Part shown: piece by piece, positions 29,010 to 52,764 of the stretch
Layout: every line of letters begins with the position of its first letter
Numbering within the stretch: position 1 is the first letter of the stretch
Assembly (NCBI GenBank): GCA_000739535.1
Contig: DF820468.1
Span: 345,466-409,465, forward strand
DNA length: 64,000 bases
Direction of reading: 5' to 3'
From: Candidatus Vecturithrix granuli
GTDB taxonomy: Bacteria > Moduliflexota > Moduliflexia > Moduliflexales > Moduliflexaceae
Notes under the pieces: model-generated
Seen by the model: the letters and a program-made list of their open reading frames with translations, nothing else
Told to the model about the DNA's origin: nothing
The model's database searches: none
Position numbers and translations under genes: made by a program

Positions 29010-29188
29010 TATAGCCAGGCTGCTCGGTAAAAAATCGAGCCATGCCAGGCAATATTTGTCAAGTTGATTTGTGCTGATAATTTATTTCTGAGAAAAGGGA
29101 TTGTTATTATTGCCGTGTCGGTTTTCTTTACACTTAATATGCCCTGAACCTCCCGGAAATTCAATGTCTTCAGGATCGTCAAAATTAG

Positions 29189-29205
29189 TGTAAACTTTTC
29201 CGTCA
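29189..29205 (-). promoter_or_regulatory. Putative activator box (reverse orientation), diverged copy
   Basis: TGTAAACTTTTCCGTCA is the reverse complement of TGACGGAAAAGTTTACA, which differs from the box TGTCGAAAAATTTTACA at 3 of 17 positions. It lies 77 bp upstream of the box at 29266 and about 210 bp before the sigma-54 promoter, a usual range for enhancer sites. Confidence 0.5.
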
Positions 29206-29265: not shown

Positions 29266-29282
29266 TGTCGAAAAACTTGACA
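29266..29282 (+). promoter_or_regulatory. Putative activator box TGTCGAAAAACTTGACA
   Basis: This 17-bp box matches the three boxes at 46081, 46169 and 46260 at 15 of 17 positions or better and lies 132 bp upstream of a sigma-54 promoter. The same combination at both loci points to an enhancer-binding protein as the activator; PrsR-type regulators of PEP-CTERM genes are the candidates I would test. Confidence 0.65.
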
Positions 29283-29397: not shown

Positions 29398-29414
29398 TCG
29401 GCATGTATTTTGCA
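29398..29414 (+). promoter_or_regulatory. Sigma-54 (-24/-12) promoter
   Basis: TCGGCATGTATTTTGCA has GG at 29400-29401 and GC at 29412-29413 with exactly ten bases between, as sigma-54 requires. The start of transcription should fall near 29425, just before the riboswitch. Confidence 0.7.
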
Positions 29415-29427
29415 TATCATTATGATA

Positions 29428-29501
29428 GAAAAAGCCAAACTCACTGTGAGGTGAGGGCGGAAAACCACGGGTCCCTTAGAAATTTGGATAGCCGGGTTGC
29501 C
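29428..29501 (+). promoter_or_regulatory. GEMM-I (c-di-GMP-I type) riboswitch aptamer
   Basis: The RNA has AGCCAAACU, a stem CUCACU/GGUGAG closed by a GUGA tetraloop, then GGGCGGAAAACCACGGGUC and the 3' strand AGCCGGGUUGCC. These are the landmarks of the GEMM-I aptamer, including its GNRA tetraloop. The 3' strand also forms the 5' half of the terminator at 29491-29531, so ligand binding and termination exclude each other; this predicts that the ligand turns the gene on. Some GEMM-I members prefer cGAMP, and sequence alone does not decide. Confidence 0.8.
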
Positions 29502-29531
29502 TAAATACGGGTAACTCGGCTTCTTTTTTTT
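29491..29531 (+). terminator. Riboswitch-controlled intrinsic terminator
   Basis: GCCGGGUUGCC pairs over 11 bp with GGUAACUCGGC and is followed by TTCTTTTTTTT. The 5' strand is shared with the riboswitch aptamer. The gene it controls starts 37 bp downstream at 29568. Confidence 0.85.
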
Positions 29532-29567: not shown

Positions 29568-30632
29568 ATGAAAAATCCAGGTTATCAGCTTATTTTTCAA
29601 GGAGTAATTGCACCCGGGCAAGAACTCGAAGAGGTCAGGAGAAAACTCAGCGCCCGGTTTCATATAGATGCGGCTCAGCTTGATCGGCTTTTTAACGGAA
29701 AGCCGATTATTGTCAAGGAAGATGCTGATTATAAGACTGTTTTGAAATACCAGATTCTTTTTGAATGGGCGGGGGCGATTGGCCGGATAGAATCGAAAAC
29801 GCCCGATATTGAGCCAGATGATTTGCAAGCGTACCCTTCTCATGTGAACGTCATTTTTGACGGTGCCATCGAGCAGCGGTATCGCGTGGAAGATGTCAAA
29901 AAAAATCTGAAGGATTTGTTAAAATTGAATGACAGACGGCTTGAAGAATTGTTTTCAGGGCATCCGGTACTGATCATGCAGAATGTCAATTATCTTCCGG
30001 CGTTAAAAATTCAAACCAGTTTTGAACTGGCCGGAGCGATGTGCCGTATTGAACCTGTTGAACAGGCATCTTCTGAGGAATCAAGTGCAGAAGAGTCTCA
30101 GCAAGAACAGTCTGGACAAGTTTCCTACGAAACCATGCACTGCCCCAAATGCGGGCGAGAACAAAAAAAATCTCGAAAATGCCGCTATTGTGGAATTTAT
30201 ATTGAGACCTATTTGAAGAAAAACACTGACTCAACATCAAAGTCAAGGAAACAATCCGCTTTCAAAAGTACGTTGAATTTGAAGCGAGAATTGTCTCAGT
30301 GGGGGACAGGACTGATTGTGTTAGGTATTATTCAGTTTACCGGTTTGGGGGTATGGGCTTCTGCTCTTGTCCTGATAGGTATCTTGAATCTGCTTGTACA
30401 GCAGCGTGTCATGTTCCTTGTGAACGGAGTCACGCTACTTATCTCAGGGACAGCGGGTTTCGTGTTCATGATCCTTCATACAGTGTTTATGAAGCAAGAC
30501 GTTGTCGTTCAAGCTGGAAACGGCGGCACTCAATGGTTCATTGAACTTGGGTATATAGTCATCATCAGCGGAATCCAGTTCTATCTGGGCGCCAGGGCAT
30601 TTAAAAAATTTGTCAGCTATCGCCGCGCTTAA
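29568..30632 (+). CDS. Membrane protein with duplicated N-terminal domain and zinc ribbon, under sigma-54 and riboswitch control
   Basis: A 354-residue protein not assigned to a named family. Residues about 5-75 and 92-165 are two copies of one domain: YQLIFQGVI...LFNGKPIIVKEDADY...EWAGAIGRIE against VNVIFDGAI...LFSGHPVLIMQNVNY...ELAGAMCRIE. An acidic linker is followed by a zinc ribbon, Cys-x2-Cys-x8-Cys-x2-Cys (CPKCGREQKKSRKCRYCG), and then about three membrane helices (245-345). The duplicated unit has the alpha/beta look of small adaptor domains; its role is unknown. ATG 29568 follows GAAAGGAG by nine bases. It is controlled by boxes, a sigma-54 promoter and a GEMM-I riboswitch built like those before the PEP-CTERM gene at 46684. 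It is therefore probably part of the same surface or matrix programme. Confidence 0.8.
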   Translation: MKNPGYQLIFQGVIAPGQELEEVRRKLSARFHIDAAQLDRLFNGKPIIVKEDADYKTVLKYQILFEWAGAIGRIESKTPDIEPDDLQAYPSHVNVIFDGAIEQRYRVEDVKKNLKDLLKLNDRRLEELFSGHPVLIMQNVNYLPALKIQTSFELAGAMCRIEPVEQASSEESSAEESQQEQSGQVSYETMHCPKCGREQKKSRKCRYCGIYIETYLKKNTDSTSKSRKQSAFKSTLNLKRELSQWGTGLIVLGIIQFTGLGVWASALVLIGILNLLVQQRVMFLVNGVTLLISGTAGFVFMILHTVFMKQDVVVQAGNGGTQWFIELGYIVIISGIQFYLGARAFKKFVSYRRA

Positions 30633-46080: not shown

Positions 46081-46097
46081 TGTCGAAAAATTTTACA
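46081..46097 (+). promoter_or_regulatory. Putative activator box 1, TGTCGAAAAATTTTACA
   Basis: This is the first of three near-identical 17-bp boxes spaced 88 and 91 bp apart upstream of the sigma-54 promoter at 46404. Boxes 1 and 2 are identical. The box has partial dyad symmetry (TGT...ACA), as expected for a dimeric enhancer-binding protein. Confidence 0.75.
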
Positions 46098-46168
46098 AAA
46101 TCTTTCCAGCTATAAATCGTTAATTTATAATATATTATGAATAGATAGCTTATATAAGCAAAATTTTA

Positions 46169-46185
46169 TGTCGAAAAATTTTACA
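46169..46185 (+). promoter_or_regulatory. Putative activator box 2, TGTCGAAAAATTTTACA
   Basis: Identical to box 1 and placed 88 bp downstream of it. The DNA between the boxes is AT-rich without other recognised signals. Confidence 0.75.
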
Positions 46186-46259
46186 TATAAGTACATCAAG
46201 CATACCATATTGTTTTACAATGCATTACAAGTATATTCTTCACCTGTAACAAAAATACC

Positions 46260-46276
46260 TGTCGAAAAAATTTACA
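46260..46276 (+). promoter_or_regulatory. Putative activator box 3, TGTCGAAAAAATTTACA
   Basis: One substitution from boxes 1 and 2. It lies 91 bp after box 2 and about 145 bp before the promoter, similar to the 132 bp separating the box at 29266 from its promoter. Confidence 0.75.
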
Positions 46277-46403
46277 CAATTATTTGTTTGGGGCAGAAAA
46301 AAAGAAGTGTTTTTTTCTGTCATCGTTTTCACTAATATTTTTTTCTCTACAAAATCCCTGGGATTACACGAAATAACAAAAATAAATCACAAAATTTTTT
46401 AAT

Positions 46404-46421
46404 CTTGGTGTGTTTCTTGCA
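46404..46421 (+). promoter_or_regulatory. Sigma-54 (-24/-12) promoter
   Basis: TTGGTGTGTTTCTTGCA has GG at 46407-46408 and GC at 46419-46420 separated by ten bases, a good fit to the TTGGCACG-N4-TTGCA consensus. Transcription should begin near 46432 and run directly into the riboswitch. Confidence 0.75.
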
Positions 46422-46461
46422 AAAAGCTAAAACAGAAATTTTAACACACAGAATATTTCCT

Positions 46462-46531
46462 GAAGAAAGCTAAACCATTCGTGAGGATGGGGCGGAAAAC
46501 CACGGGTCTTACACAAGACAGCCGGGTTGCC
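46462..46531 (+). promoter_or_regulatory. GEMM-I (c-di-GMP-I type) riboswitch aptamer
   Basis: AGCUAAACC, a stem CCAUUC/GGAUGG capped by a GUGA tetraloop, GGGGCGGAAAACCACGGGUC (20 bases), a variable hairpin (GUCUUACACAAGAC) and the 3' strand AGCCGGGUUGCC match the GEMM-I aptamer and the copy at 29428 in all fixed parts. The 3' strand is reused in the terminator at 46521, so ligand binding should prevent termination. The genes it precedes and the sigma-54 promoter before it make c-di-GMP the expected ligand; cGAMP is not excluded. Confidence 0.85.
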
Positions 46532-46555
46532 TGGAAAGGTAGCCCGGCTTTTTTT
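46521..46555 (+). terminator. Riboswitch-controlled intrinsic terminator
   Basis: GCCGGGUUGCC pairs over 11 bp with GGUAGCCCGGC around loop UGGAAA and is followed by seven T. Its 5' strand is the last conserved strand of the riboswitch. A further 128 bp separate it from the start codon at 46684; that stretch holds only the ribosome site GGGAGG. Confidence 0.88.
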
Positions 46556-46683
46556 ATGGGAAATCCTATCGTTAGAAGGGGGGATGGCTTATGCGATGGA
46601 AAGAGAGAAACAGAGTGTAAAATGAGGATGTAAGAAATGGAAATTATAAACAATTTACCAATGATAAAGGGAGGAAAATTTTT

Positions 46684-49600
46684 ATGAAAGTACAGAATTT
46701 TTCATCGAAATTATTCTCTGTGAGTATAACGCTGCTCATCCTGGGAATACTTGTGAGTCTGGTGGTATCTCCGGCGTTGGCAGATACATTCACATTCCCC
46801 GGCGGATCGCTCACCACAAAAAATCTGAATGCCTGGGGCGGAGTAAATACCATTCAATACAATGCGTACTTCGATTTTAGTACAGGTCCCAGCACAATCA
46901 CTGTTTACGGCTTAGATCTTACGGATATCTGGTATGAAGGGAAATGGCCCTGGCCTCCGCTCGCAGAAAGTCTGGGGGCACAGGCTCGATTTGGGATCAA
47001 TGCCAATGGTTTCTGGAGCCAGCATCAAATCCACAGTGCGATTGGCAATGGCGGCGGATCCTGGGATCAGCAGAGTGCAGCCTGGGATCACGACGACGGC
47101 TTCCGCAAATATCTCATCCAAAACCAGTGGTCCGGCACAACATCTGACGTCACCGTTGGAAATCATCAGTATAATGTCGAAGCCTATATTCCTCGCATTG
47201 GCGCTGGTTCCAGCGTGAATGATCCGAGCCAGGTTACTGATCGGGCGTATAATACCTTTGACATGAAAATTACATATACCCCGACCAGCACTCCCGGTGC
47301 ATACGAAGTTCAGGGCTGGGTACGACTACACAAAGCTGCCTCTACTGACGAAATGGCTGTCCGCCCAGGTAGTCCAGTGTGGGGAAGTCCATACACCTGG
47401 GTTTGGAATAAGGCCATCAACAATCAAACGAATCCTGAAAATGCCTGGGTGCCATTTTTTGATGGAGCATGGACGATCACGGGCGACTACACCTCAGCGC
47501 GTCCTTATCTCGAAATCATAAACTGGGGAGTTCCTCAGACAAGAAATCATACCTTTTCCTGGGATAGCATGGTCGTCGAAGGCACGCCAGTGATACCGGA
47601 TGAAGTATGGGTTGATGATGATTGGACAGGGCACAGTAACGGCGACATTGTCGATGGGCATGTTTTCGGTTATGATGCCTTTGCGACTATCCAGGATGGC
47701 ATTGATGCGGTTTCCGGCAGCACCGTGCATGTCGCCGCAGGGACATATAACGAGGCTGTGACTGTCAACAAATCCGTTTCTCTGCTTGGCAGCCTCGGCG
47801 CGATTCTTGACGGCTCCGGAGTTGGCGGAAACGGTTTTCTGATCAAGGCTGCTAATATCAGCATTGACGGATTCGAGATCAAGAACTTTGCCATTGGTGT
47901 GAGAACTTACGGTGGTCCCAGCGACTTTGGGAATTTGGATATCCTGAATTGCAATATCCACGATAACACTCAAAATGGCATGTTAATCGTGTATGATACA
48001 TTTGATACTGTCACAGTTGGAAACTGCGAGATCAGCAGCAATGGACAAAACGGGGTCGGCCTTGGCAACAATACGACGATCACAGCTTTGAACATCAACG
48101 ATACCGCTGTTTCAGATAATGGACAGCATGGGATGTTTGTTGCGCAGACGCACATTGCTTCGATCTCCATTGGAAATTCCCAATTCATTGATTCAAAAAC
48201 ATACTCCGGAATTACCTTTGGAACAACGGCGTCGACCATTGGCTCTTTTGTCATGGAAGGCGGCGAGCTTTCAGGAAATAAAGAATCAGGGCTGTCAATT
48301 GTGCAGAAGGCTTCGACATTTCAGGTGATTACGCTGAATGGAGTCGCTGTGAAGAACAACAAGGCAAGCGGTGTGATGCTTGGCGGCGGAGCCAGTACAG
48401 GCAATTTATCGGTTCTTAACTCAACCTTTCAAGGGAACAGTTGGGAGGAATTTGATCTGAGCGGCGGCTGGTTTGGCGCGTTTTCTGTTTCCGGCGACAC
48501 ATCTTTTACTGGCAACACCTTTGAAGGTGGCCCCTGGGCGGCTATCTACATTGGTGATCTGGCGAGTTTTGGTTCCGCCCCGGTTATTTTTAATAATGAC
48601 CTGTCTGGTTATGGAAATGCGGTTTTCAACGCCAGTACAACGATCGTCAATGCCTCCGGAAACTGGTGGGGCACTAATACGCCGGCAGGCGTGGCGTCTA
48701 AAGTGACTGCTGCTACAGTTGATTATACTCCCTGGCTGCACAGCGGCACCGATACAGGCGATCCCAGTTTCCAGGGCGATTTCTCGACCTTGCACGTCGA
48801 TGACGACAGTCCGCAGGTTGGCGCAACCGGACGCATTCAAGAAGCTATCGATCTGGTCACTGGCAGCACGATCTATGTCGCTGCGGGAACGTATGAAGAA
48901 AACATCAATGTCAATACATCTGTGGAGATAATCGGAGCGGGCAGCGGCGATGACCCGGCGTCGAACACCATCATCACCCAAACTACGGCTGGGGCCGGGG
49001 AGACGAAGATCGGCGTTGTCCAACTCAGTGCTTCGGGCACATCCGGCAATCCGATTCTCTTGCAGGATATGCGCCTGGAGCCGGTCGGCATGGCTGGCAT
49101 CAGCGTCGGCCGCTTTACTGAAGGCACTGGCCAGACAGTGGAGCATGTCAAGTTAGACAACGTGCAGGTGATCGGCACGAATGCGAATCCAAGCACTGAG
49201 CAAGAACGCGGACTGTACGTGGATTTGACCTCGACGCTGCGCTATCTGGATGTTGACAACTGCGCTTTCGACAACCTCACCTATGGGTGGTACCTGCAAA
49301 AGGCCGTCAGCGCCGACGCCAGCACTGTCCGGTATGTCACCGTTGATAATACGACTTTCAACCACAACAATCACAAAGGCCTTTACGCCGAGAAATTGTC
49401 CGATGCGACGTTCACCGGGTGTACCGCTGATGACAATGGTTTCGACTCATCAGCCCTGCCCAGCTACTTTGCGCCATGGAGCGCTGGCATCGACATCAAC
49501 CTGAAAGCCGGAACCTACACGAATCTTGCCTTCATGACCTGTACGATCACCAACAACGCCAACGACGAAGCCAAAGAGGGTGTAGGCCTGACCGTGAAAG

Positions 49601-50517
49601 CGCGCGATGATGGCAGTTATAGCGCATATCCGGCAACGCTGACCAATGTCACGATTGAAGACGGCCTGTTCAGCGGCAACGAACGCGGTATCCGCATTGG
49701 CGAACCATTGAAGAACAACGCCGGTCCGATCAATGTTCAGGTGCATTATAATAATATCACCGGCAACGTTCAGAACTATAGCGGCAATGATGGCTCTCAA
49801 TATGGCGGTTTGATCAACCACACTCAGACTCAGGTTCATGGCACTTGCAATTGGTGGGGAGCAGCCGATGGCCCCTCTGGCGCAGGCAGCGGCAGCGGCG
49901 ATGCCGTGAGTAGCAATGTGGAATTCATCCCCTGGCTGCTTGATCCGGCGCCTGATGGAGCTTGTGAAGGGTATCCGTTAGAAGGTATTACTATAGAGAA
50001 AAGCCAGGAGCTTGAATTTGATCGTGGCTCTGATCCATTTACAGAAACGCCATTTGTGGATCATGGCGATGAGATCGTGTACAGCATCGAAGTGACCAAT
50101 ACCTTCGCTCAGGCGGTAGATGTACTTGTTTCCGATGCGATGAGCGCGTACGTGGATTATCTCGCTGATTCATTAGAAGTGTACATAAACGGTATCGAAT
50201 TCGATGATCCTGACAAAGAAGACAGTATCTCCTATGACGCCATTCTCGATGTGTACTCTCTGGCGTACGTCTTTAACTCGCTTGGCGCAAACGAGACCCT
50301 AAAACTTGAGTTCACTGTGAAAGTTGAAGATTTTGTGCCGCTTGGAGAATGGATTGAAAATTTCGCGATTGTAACTGTGACCATTCCGGGCTTGGAGTTT
50401 GAGGTCGAGAGCAACACGGTAAGGGTTGAAGTAGTGCCTGAACCGGCGACATTTTTTTTGATCGGCTCCGGCTTACTCGGAATCGGCGCACTGGTATGGA
50501 GAAAAAGAAAACAATAA
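46684..50517 (+). CDS. Secreted parallel beta-helix protein with PEP-CTERM sorting signal
   Basis: A 1277-residue exported protein. Signal peptide about 1-33 (cleavage after SPALA); a beta-rich domain (about 35-300) rich in Trp and Asn; a first beta-helix (about 310-680) introduced by WVDDDWTGHSNGD and VHVAAGTYNEAVTVNKSVSLLGS (in part) and closed by GNWWGTNTP; a second beta-helix (about 695-1110) introduced by LHVDDDSPQVG and closed by CNWWGAADGP; a DUF11/CARDB-like adhesion-type domain (about 1125-1240); and the tail VPEPATFFLIGSG...GALVWRKRKQ, a PEP-CTERM motif recognised by exosortase. Such proteins are processed and sorted to the cell surface or matrix, and are linked with exopolysaccharide and floc formation. 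Exosortase genes are not in this window. Start ATG follows GGGAGGAAAATTTTT. Control is by three boxes, sigma-54 and a GEMM-I riboswitch. Confidence 0.9.
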   Translation: MKVQNFSSKLFSVSITLLILGILVSLVVSPALADTFTFPGGSLTTKNLNAWGGVNTIQYNAYFDFSTGPSTITVYGLDLTDIWYEGKWPWPPLAESLGAQARFGINANGFWSQHQIHSAIGNGGGSWDQQSAAWDHDDGFRKYLIQNQWSGTTSDVTVGNHQYNVEAYIPRIGAGSSVNDPSQVTDRAYNTFDMKITYTPTSTPGAYEVQGWVRLHKAASTDEMAVRPGSPVWGSPYTWVWNKAINNQTNPENAWVPFFDGAWTITGDYTSARPYLEIINWGVPQTRNHTFSWDSMVVEGTPVIPDEVWVDDDWTGHSNGDIVDGHVFGYDAFATIQDGIDAVSGSTVHVAAGTYNEAVTVNKSVSLLGSLGAILDGSGVGGNGFLIKAANISIDGFEIKNFAIGVRTYGGPSDFGNLDILNCNIHDNTQNGMLIVYDTFDTVTVGNCEISSNGQNGVGLGNNTTITALNINDTAVSDNGQHGMFVAQTHIASISIGNSQFIDSKTYSGITFGTTASTIGSFVMEGGELSGNKESGLSIVQKASTFQVITLNGVAVKNNKASGVMLGGGASTGNLSVLNSTFQGNSWEEFDLSGGWFGAFSVSGDTSFTGNTFEGGPWAAIYIGDLASFGSAPVIFNNDLSGYGNAVFNASTTIVNASGNWWGTNTPAGVASKVTAATVDYTPWLHSGTDTGDPSFQGDFSTLHVDDDSPQVGATGRIQEAIDLVTGSTIYVAAGTYEENINVNTSVEIIGAGSGDDPASNTIITQTTAGAGETKIGVVQLSASGTSGNPILLQDMRLEPVGMAGISVGRFTEGTGQTVEHVKLDNVQVIGTNANPSTEQERGLYVDLTSTLRYLDVDNCAFDNLTYGWYLQKAVSADASTVRYVTVDNTTFNHNNHKGLYAEKLSDATFTGCTADDNGFDSSALPSYFAPWSAGIDINLKAGTYTNLAFMTCTITNNANDEAKEGVGLTVKARDDGSYSAYPATLTNVTIEDGLFSGNERGIRIGEPLKNNAGPINVQVHYNNITGNVQNYSGNDGSQYGGLINHTQTQVHGTCNWWGAADGPSGAGSGSGDAVSSNVEFIPWLLDPAPDGACEGYPLEGITIEKSQELEFDRGSDPFTETPFVDHGDEIVYSIEVTNTFAQAVDVLVSDAMSAYVDYLADSLEVYINGIEFDDPDKEDSISYDAILDVYSLAYVFNSLGANETLKLEFTVKVEDFVPLGEWIENFAIVTVTIPGLEFEVESNTVRVEVVPEPATFFLIGSGLLGIGALVWRKRKQ

Positions 50518-51151: not shown

Positions 51152-51261
51152 TATAATTTGTTGTTTCAGAAATGGGCCTCGAAATTTCCGAAATACAACG
51201 ACATTCCAGGGAACTGGAATTCGTGTCTCATTTCCGAAACAACGGAAGTGGAGAAAAACCT

Positions 51262-52764
51262 ATGGAACGGAAATCTTATGGAGAGCTAAGTGTTTTCTTT
51301 CTGTCTGTGATACTCCTGACCTGCCTGATTCTGGTTCCATCACAACATGTCGCCTATGCTGAGGAAGACTCCCAACAAGCCATTGAGCGACTGACTAAAA
51401 CGATCGAACAAAATCCTCAAGACGCCGAAGCCTATTATCAGCGCGCTGAGGAATATTTTCTGATCGATAAATATGAAGAAGCGATTCATGATTACAGCAA
51501 AGTGCTTGAACTGAACCCCAAACATGTCGCTGCGTATAATAATCGCGGTTTTGCCTATGCCCAGGCAGGCTATTATGACGAGGCTTTTGCAGATTACAAG
51601 CAGACAATCGCCCTTGACCCCGCGAACGCGGTCGCCTATCGCCGTTATGGATTGGCGCTCAACCAACGTGGCCAACATGAGGAGGCGTTGCCATTGTTTG
51701 ACAAAGCGCTTGAACTCGATCCAGAAGACGGCGTAAGCTATTTTGAGCGCGGCAATGCGTACTTTCTCCTGAACAAATATGAAGAAAGCAGCGCTGATTA
51801 TACCAAAAGTCTCGAATTTCTGCCTGAACATCCGAATGCCTGGTATTATCGCGGCATGTCCTATTTTAAGCTTGACAAATATGAGGAAGCCATTCGGGAT
51901 TATACCCAAGCTCAGGCTCTCGGCATCGAAGCGCAAGATCTGTACAGCGAACGCGGTCTGGCCTATCAACGAACGCAGCAATATGACCAGGCGCTTCAAT
52001 ATCTCAGTACGGTCATTGCAATGCAGCCTGATTCTTCCAGAGCCTACACCGACCGGGGATTTACCTATTATGACGCCAAACGCTATGAAGAGGCGATTCA
52101 AGATTTTGGGAAAGCCATCGAATTAGAACCGAAAAATGCGACGGCCTTTTATTTTCGCGGGCATAGTTATCGCGCGGTCGGACAATACAAAGAAGCGGTT
52201 GATGATTATCGCGCTGTGGAAAAACTTGATCCGCGTTGGACGGAACGGATCATCGAAGAATATAGCAAAGTGATCGAACTCGATCCGCAGAATATCCGTG
52301 CGATCTTTTCCAGAGCCGAAAGTTATAACTCGCTCAAACGCTATGAAGAAGCCTTACCGGATTATACGAAGGTAGTCGAATTTGCGCCCAACAATGCGAA
52401 TGCCTATTATCTACGGGGGATGTGTCAGCGCCGTTTAAAGCACTATCAGGAGGCGATCCAGGATTTCAGCAAAGCGATTGAACTCGACGCGCAGCATACT
52501 GATGCTTATAAGAATCGCGGCGATTGTTATACGATTCTCAAGCAACATGCTGAGGCGATTGAGGATTATACCACCGCGATCACACTCGATCCCGAATTGA
52601 TCTATGCTTATTATAACCGTGCGCTTACCTATGAACAGTTACAACAGAATGAGCAAGCGGCCAATGATTATAACATCTATTTAAAACTTCGAGGTGACAA
52701 GGATAAAGATGCCGGTAAAATCAGTCAGAAAATCCGGGACTTAGGATTTACGCCCGAATTTTGA
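51262..52764 (+). CDS. Exported TPR-repeat protein
   Basis: A 500-residue protein with a signal peptide (about 1-33, MERKSYGELSVFFLSVILL..., cleavage after AYA) followed by about thirteen tandem TPR units, most of the regular form AYYQRAEEYFLIDKYEEAIHDYSKVLELNP (in part). The repeats contain the normal small and aromatic positions, so they should stack into one superhelix that binds partner proteins. The start was set at ATG 51262, where the signal peptide begins; the longer frame adds 30 residues without signal character. It ends 9 bp before the converging Uma2-like gene, with no terminator visible. Its partner is unknown. Confidence 0.82.
   Translation: MERKSYGELSVFFLSVILLTCLILVPSQHVAYAEEDSQQAIERLTKTIEQNPQDAEAYYQRAEEYFLIDKYEEAIHDYSKVLELNPKHVAAYNNRGFAYAQAGYYDEAFADYKQTIALDPANAVAYRRYGLALNQRGQHEEALPLFDKALELDPEDGVSYFERGNAYFLLNKYEESSADYTKSLEFLPEHPNAWYYRGMSYFKLDKYEEAIRDYTQAQALGIEAQDLYSERGLAYQRTQQYDQALQYLSTVIAMQPDSSRAYTDRGFTYYDAKRYEEAIQDFGKAIELEPKNATAFYFRGHSYRAVGQYKEAVDDYRAVEKLDPRWTERIIEEYSKVIELDPQNIRAIFSRAESYNSLKRYEEALPDYTKVVEFAPNNANAYYLRGMCQRRLKHYQEAIQDFSKAIELDAQHTDAYKNRGDCYTILKQHAEAIEDYTTAITLDPELIYAYYNRALTYEQLQQNEQAANDYNIYLKLRGDKDKDAGKISQKIRDLGFTPEF

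Follow-up and report, generated by a model that had tools for sequence, protein, structure and literature searches.

The window, a stretch of 64,000 nucleotides, comes from UASB270, Candidatus Vecturithrix granuli, a filamentous bacterium of the phylum KSB3/Modulibacteria whose source was an industrial reactor with anaerobic sludge granules (PMC4312070). Two control regions of similar build are found in it, at 46 kb and at 29 kb (Table 1). The first had been described previously, from the DNA alone, as three 17-bp boxes, two of them identical, ahead of a sigma-54 promoter and a GEMM-I riboswitch with an overlapping terminator. All three boxes are present with that identity and spacing, a sigma-54 site is readable behind them, the riboswitch matches RF03167 above the gathering score (by a narrow margin), and the terminator hairpin overlaps the P3' strand of the aptamer. 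The transcript probably starts near position 46432.

Table 1. Features of the two control regions and their downstream genes, in window coordinates
Feature	Positions	Strand	Remarks
PrsR-type box 1	46081..46097	+	TGTCGAAAAATTTTACA; read in sequence; exact genome-wide match
PrsR-type box 2	46169..46185	+	same sequence as box 1; 88 bp downstream of it
PrsR-type box 3	46260..46276	+	TGTCGAAAAAATTTACA; 91 bp downstream of box 2
Sigma-54 promoter	46406..46421	+	TGGTGTGTTTCTTGCA (-24 GG / -12 GC); 129 bp after box 3
c-di-GMP-I-GGC aptamer	46460..46535	+	Rfam match to RF03167, 60.2 bits (cut-off 59), E 1.1e-11
Intrinsic terminator hairpin	46520..46549	+	-25.2 kcal/mol; 5' arm formed by the aptamer P3' strand
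Terminator U-run	46550-46555	+	predicted ON-type expression platform
PEP-CTERM protein gene	46684..50517	+	1277 aa, secreted, right-handed beta-helix
Sister box 1	29116..29132	+	TGTCGGTTTTCTTTACA
Sister box 2	29189..29205	-	TGACGGAAAAGTTTACA; inverted
Sister box 3	29266..29282	+	TGTCGAAAAACTTGACA
Sister sigma-54 site	29399..29414	+	CGGCATGTATTTTGCA
Sister c-di-GMP-I-GGC aptamer	29425..29505	+	69.6 bits (cut-off 59)
Sister terminator hairpin	29486..29524	+	overlaps P3' strand (predicted ON type); U-run follows
Sister downstream gene	29568..30632	+	354 aa

The gene behind the 46-kb region encodes, as had been proposed, a PEP-CTERM beta-helix protein: it contains a PF13229 domain and exceeds both curated PEP-CTERM cut-offs (Pfam, 25.8 against 20.7; NCBIfam, 20.6 against 16), and its tail, VPEPATFFLIGSGLLGIGALVWRKRKQ (approximately 50434-50514), consists of a PEP motif, a hydrophobic helix and a basic C-terminal end. 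The PEP-CTERM gene is followed by a gene for a 530-aa TPR protein (51172-52764) that also matches MamA models and scores 154.8 bits with the PrsT model, below the cut-off of 312. At the sister locus, the first box had been missed in the preliminary description, and the 354-aa product shows no PEP-CTERM match in either Pfam or NCBIfam. The shared regulatory grammar suggested for the two loci is common to both; it is actually that of about 16 loci, and the 29-kb target is not a PEP-CTERM protein.

Box arrays and their candidate regulator

The pattern TGTCGRNNNNNTTTACA has 42 matches in the 8.38 Mb genome compared to 3 for the reversed control, and nearly all of these, with only a handful of exceptions, are in 16 arrays; random recurrence, which had been set beforehand as a refutation, was not seen. 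All counts refer to the assembly of 8,384,694 bp in 21 contigs, which was binned from a metagenome and has a contamination estimated at 10.75%; the arrays are spread over 9 of the contigs. Fifteen arrays consist of three boxes and one (A15) of two, and the neighbourhood of A13 is partly N. Only two of the eight possible triplet orientations occur, >>> and ><>, with mean box spacings of 89.5 and 77.3 bp, respectively (Mann-Whitney P 8e-6), such that only the middle box flips and the outer boxes are invariably directed downstream.

A sigma-54 site is located 108-131 bp past the last box in all 15 readable arrays (that of A5 is weak), a placement with a chance probability of about 1e-34 given the background rate of such sites. 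Just downstream, at the predicted start site, 12 of the 16 arrays have a riboswitch; conversely, 12 of the 26 riboswitch loci of the genome belong to arrays (P ~1e-30), and C15:68326 is a less perfect thirteenth case. The succession of three ordered boxes, a sigma-54 promoter at this distance and a c-di-GMP-I riboswitch opening the transcript is directly visible in the DNA. The PEP-CTERM enrichment expected behind the boxes is also observed: the first gene encodes a PEP-CTERM protein in 10 of the 16 arrays, compared to 27 such genes among about 7000 (hypergeometric P ~1e-21), and in an eleventh array, A8, a PEP-CTERM gene lies farther downstream. About 16 of the 27 PEP-CTERM genes have no array.

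In Proteobacteria, a 17-nt motif ending in TTTACA and sometimes repeated (motif 1) has been found upstream of PEP-CTERM genes, followed by a sigma-54 motif (motif 2) after a spacer of 62.8 +/- 10.6 nt (range 32-92), and has been assigned to PrsR, with a matching PrsR/PrsK/PrsT set; at that time the motif was seen in no group other than Proteobacteria (Haft et al. 2006; PMC1569441). The control of PEP-CTERM genes by RpoN and PrsK/PrsR given in the preliminary description agrees with that work. The Vecturithrix system resembles the published one in its 17-nt box ending in TTTACA (matched to the text of the paper rather than to its logo), the downstream sigma-54 site, the PEP-CTERM targets, and the presence of PrsR, PrsK and an EpsH-type exosortase. 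It differs in the box-to-promoter distance (108-131 bp against 32-92 nt, a published statistic and no defining property), in its fixed three-box layouts and riboswitch in series, neither of which is described by Haft et al., and in its occurrence in KSB3/Modulibacteria. The riboswitch layer and the long spacing are new relative to the 2006 motif. A lone box with a sigma-54 site at a spacing of 53 bp, similar to that of Haft et al., is present at C20:423953-424038 (L226) and has no clear target gene.

The prsR and epsH/xrtA genes that were to be sought in this genome are both present. PrsK (708 aa; 391 bits, cut-off 300) adjoins PrsR (454 aa; 614 bits, cut-off 502.6) behind a chain-length/tyrosine-kinase gene, and the exosortase XrtA scores 232 bits against a cut-off of 208. 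Because dozens of sigma-54 activators are encoded in the genome (about 44 proteins match the activator region), the binder of the boxes has to be inferred, and we infer PrsR from its being the sole activator above the PrsR cut-off, from the motif and from the targets. Binding by another NtrC-type activator, which would leave the architecture and the riboswitch logic unchanged, accords with this multitude of candidates and with the departure from the published box-to-promoter distance; we consider it unlikely given the single activator above the cut-off, the fit of the box to motif 1 as described, the PEP-CTERM targets, and the presence of both such boxes and an above-cut-off PrsR in the one same-family and the two same-order genomes. 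Identical 17-mers recurring in threes on many contigs might also suggest a repeat or mobile element that landed upstream of surface genes by chance. This explanation is extremely improbable: the inter-box spacers are unrelated between loci (three short weak matches in 91 pairs), which speaks against a simple repeat or mobile origin of the arrays, and the position of the arrays relative to sigma-54 sites and riboswitches is fixed. Since the spacers differ, the boxes appear to be maintained rather than freshly copied.

Riboswitch polarity and ligand

The genome contains 29 RF03167 riboswitches at 26 loci. In both window leaders, the 5' arm of the terminator is the aptamer P3' strand (AGCCGGGTTGCC), so that aptamer and terminator cannot coexist, and forcing the aptamer in folding removes the terminator; hence the two riboswitches look like ON switches, and most of the others with this overlapping layout are predicted to be ON as well. 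A different layout is seen at C16:317217, C17:515396, C13:284117, C17:371056 and C18:145159, where the P3' strand has a possible alternative partner, a separate GGAAACCGGCT-like segment, which doubles as the 5' arm of a terminator farther downstream. When the aptamer is forced at these loci, the terminator is able to form, and accordingly they read as OFF; C15:68326 has the same antiterminator layout, as judged by eye. The automatic terminator caller took the antiterminator hairpin at three OFF-type loci, and their assignment therefore comes from folding with the aptamer forced or from visual inspection. By this reading, the array riboswitches would comprise 8 ON and 4 OFF types, with C10:213470 ambiguous. 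The predicted OFF riboswitches belong in part to the same box regulon as the ON types of the window.

In the two window leaders, folds computed without ligand or tertiary energy favour the terminator over the aptamer by 16-21 kcal/mol, and switching would therefore have to be co-transcriptional. Such a stable terminator, together with the modest aptamer score, might indicate a relic riboswitch with a terminator that attenuates constantly; this is quite unlikely considering that aptamers with overlapping terminators occur at many loci with differing sequences and are kept in another genus. With respect to the ligand, a G at position 20 of GEMM-I RNAs confers c-di-GMP specificity, whereas an A is typical of those that sense 3',3'-cGAMP. 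A hand-anchored alignment shows A20 in 4 of the 29 riboswitches (C18:511147, C18:508541, C21:116508 and C4:76918), which would fit RNAs that respond chiefly to a different cyclic dinucleotide, for instance 3',3'-cGAMP; the G20 of both window riboswitches and 23 others, and the assignment of the Rfam family as c-di-GMP-I-GGC, make this reading very improbable.

Tandem arrangements were detected at two loci. At C14:491404-491910 (L074), a single box array is followed by three c-di-GMP riboswitches, and an individual terminator overlaps each of them; at C2:17809-18114 (L067), the first of two riboswitches has a terminator and the second apparently masks the ribosome-binding site.

Relatives and comparable systems

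The genome set used contains, besides Vecturithrix granuli, a single genome of the family (G001), which belongs to another genus, and two of the order. The three RF03167 riboswitches of G001 are all located behind one or more boxes and a sigma-54 site, at spacings of 111-121 bp, and two of them precede a PEP-CTERM gene; a fourth box/sigma-54 promoter precedes a PEP-CTERM gene without a riboswitch. All three expression platforms look like the OFF type, the third by eye. The two same-order genomes (G002 and G003) contain box arrays upstream of PEP-CTERM genes with no riboswitch adjacent to these arrays. Among 65 stretches upstream of PEP-CTERM genes in ten PrsR-bearing genomes of other lineages, there is no c-di-GMP riboswitch at the Rfam gathering score. 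Because the riboswitch layer is kept in G001 and absent from these 65 stretches, it looks lineage-specific within this sample. A search of 385 genomes for the short-spacing box and sigma-54 pattern yielded one site, in the Vecturithrix granuli genome itself; this negative is weak evidence because few of the genomes searched are PrsR-bearing and the boxes of Proteobacteria may follow a looser pattern.

A riboswitch ahead of PEP-CTERM genes had been thought not to be widely described, which is a fair statement, not an absolute one. In Methylophaga strain GP59, four c-di-GMP riboswitches were reported in 2025 before PEP-CTERM-type genes, directly upstream of PEP-CTERM or VPLPA-CTERM genes as in Vecturithrix, a published independent case; neighbours and transcript levels are given there, and the accessible part makes no mention of PrsR boxes, sigma-54 or switch polarity (PMC12530212). 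The pepA gene of the floc former Aquincola tertiaricarbonis is a PEP-CTERM gene that depends on RpoN experimentally and has a predicted upstream enhancer, similar to the Vecturithrix genes; unlike Vecturithrix, this organism is a proteobacterium, and no riboswitch is reported (PMC9850573). In Geobacter sulfurreducens, the GEMM-I genes GSU1945 and GSU1948 are close by locus number to prsK/prsR (GSU1941/1940), and the available portions of the two reports do not describe a series of box, sigma-54 site and riboswitch (PMC10599522, PMC7726332).

Predicted dual control and a possible riboswitch-linked C-terminal tag

Taken by its DNA features, the 46-kb region is quite probably a member of a PrsK/PrsR-sigma-54 regulon with an added second-messenger layer. 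Phosphorylated PrsR bound to the three boxes would drive sigma-54 RNA polymerase through looping, and transcription would begin just ahead of the aptamer. Without c-di-GMP, the P3' strand would fold into the terminator and transcription would stop; with c-di-GMP bound, the aptamer would keep the P3' strand, the polymerase would read on, and the surface protein would be sorted by XrtA. A PrsR-driven start combined with an ON riboswitch would thus make the window gene an AND gate for the PrsK/PrsR signal and high c-di-GMP. At the antiterminator-type riboswitches of the same regulon, c-di-GMP binding would instead stop transcription. Given the mixed ON and OFF platforms, c-di-GMP would choose among the PrsR targets and may split one PrsR regulon.

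PEP-CTERM/exosortase proteins are associated with the formation of flocs and granules in wastewater treatment, and ideas on the switching of their genes have so far been largely inferential. In Vecturithrix, which lies outside Proteobacteria, where the PrsR site was defined, the same genes would receive two inputs in series, one from a two-component/sigma-54 system and one from a c-di-GMP RNA. It thus appears that the outer coat is produced only when an external signal coincides with a suitable level of an internal messenger, and the mixture of ON and OFF types suggests that c-di-GMP may select which coat is made. In a filament of anaerobic granules, c-di-GMP is thereby connected, in a way open to testing, with surface proteins sorted by an exosortase.

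Riboswitches without boxes are associated with another group of proteins. Six of them precede secreted proteins that end in LLWT[KR]; the product of the first gene of A8, the array with three riboswitches, has the same ending, bringing the number of such riboswitch loci to seven. The whole-genome tag pattern has 46 matches here and none in G001; eight other genomes contain 0-3 each. Among open frames of at least 70 aa, 37 end in the tag, 31 of them in YLLWT[KR] and 24 in SYLLWT[KR], and by a simple rule most of the tagged proteins have a signal-peptide-like start. After removal of the last ten residues, the full set of 41 tagged proteins falls into 29 unrelated groups. Four tagged proteins compared with the NCBIfam tail models gave no match, and no relevant publication on LLWTK came up in the literature. 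Judging from these patterns, (S)YLLWT[KR] seems to be a C-terminal tag not described before; that it serves in sorting is speculative.

A broader scheme, in which PrsR would activate the entire regulon, c-di-GMP would permit the ON set and silence the OFF set to yield two alternative coats, and the same riboswitch family would also control the YLLWT[KR]-tagged secreted class, is tentative, possible rather than probable. Genes for tagged proteins form clusters at C18:502500-522000 (L089) and C4:74500-92500 (L088) and are found in about 20 other places.
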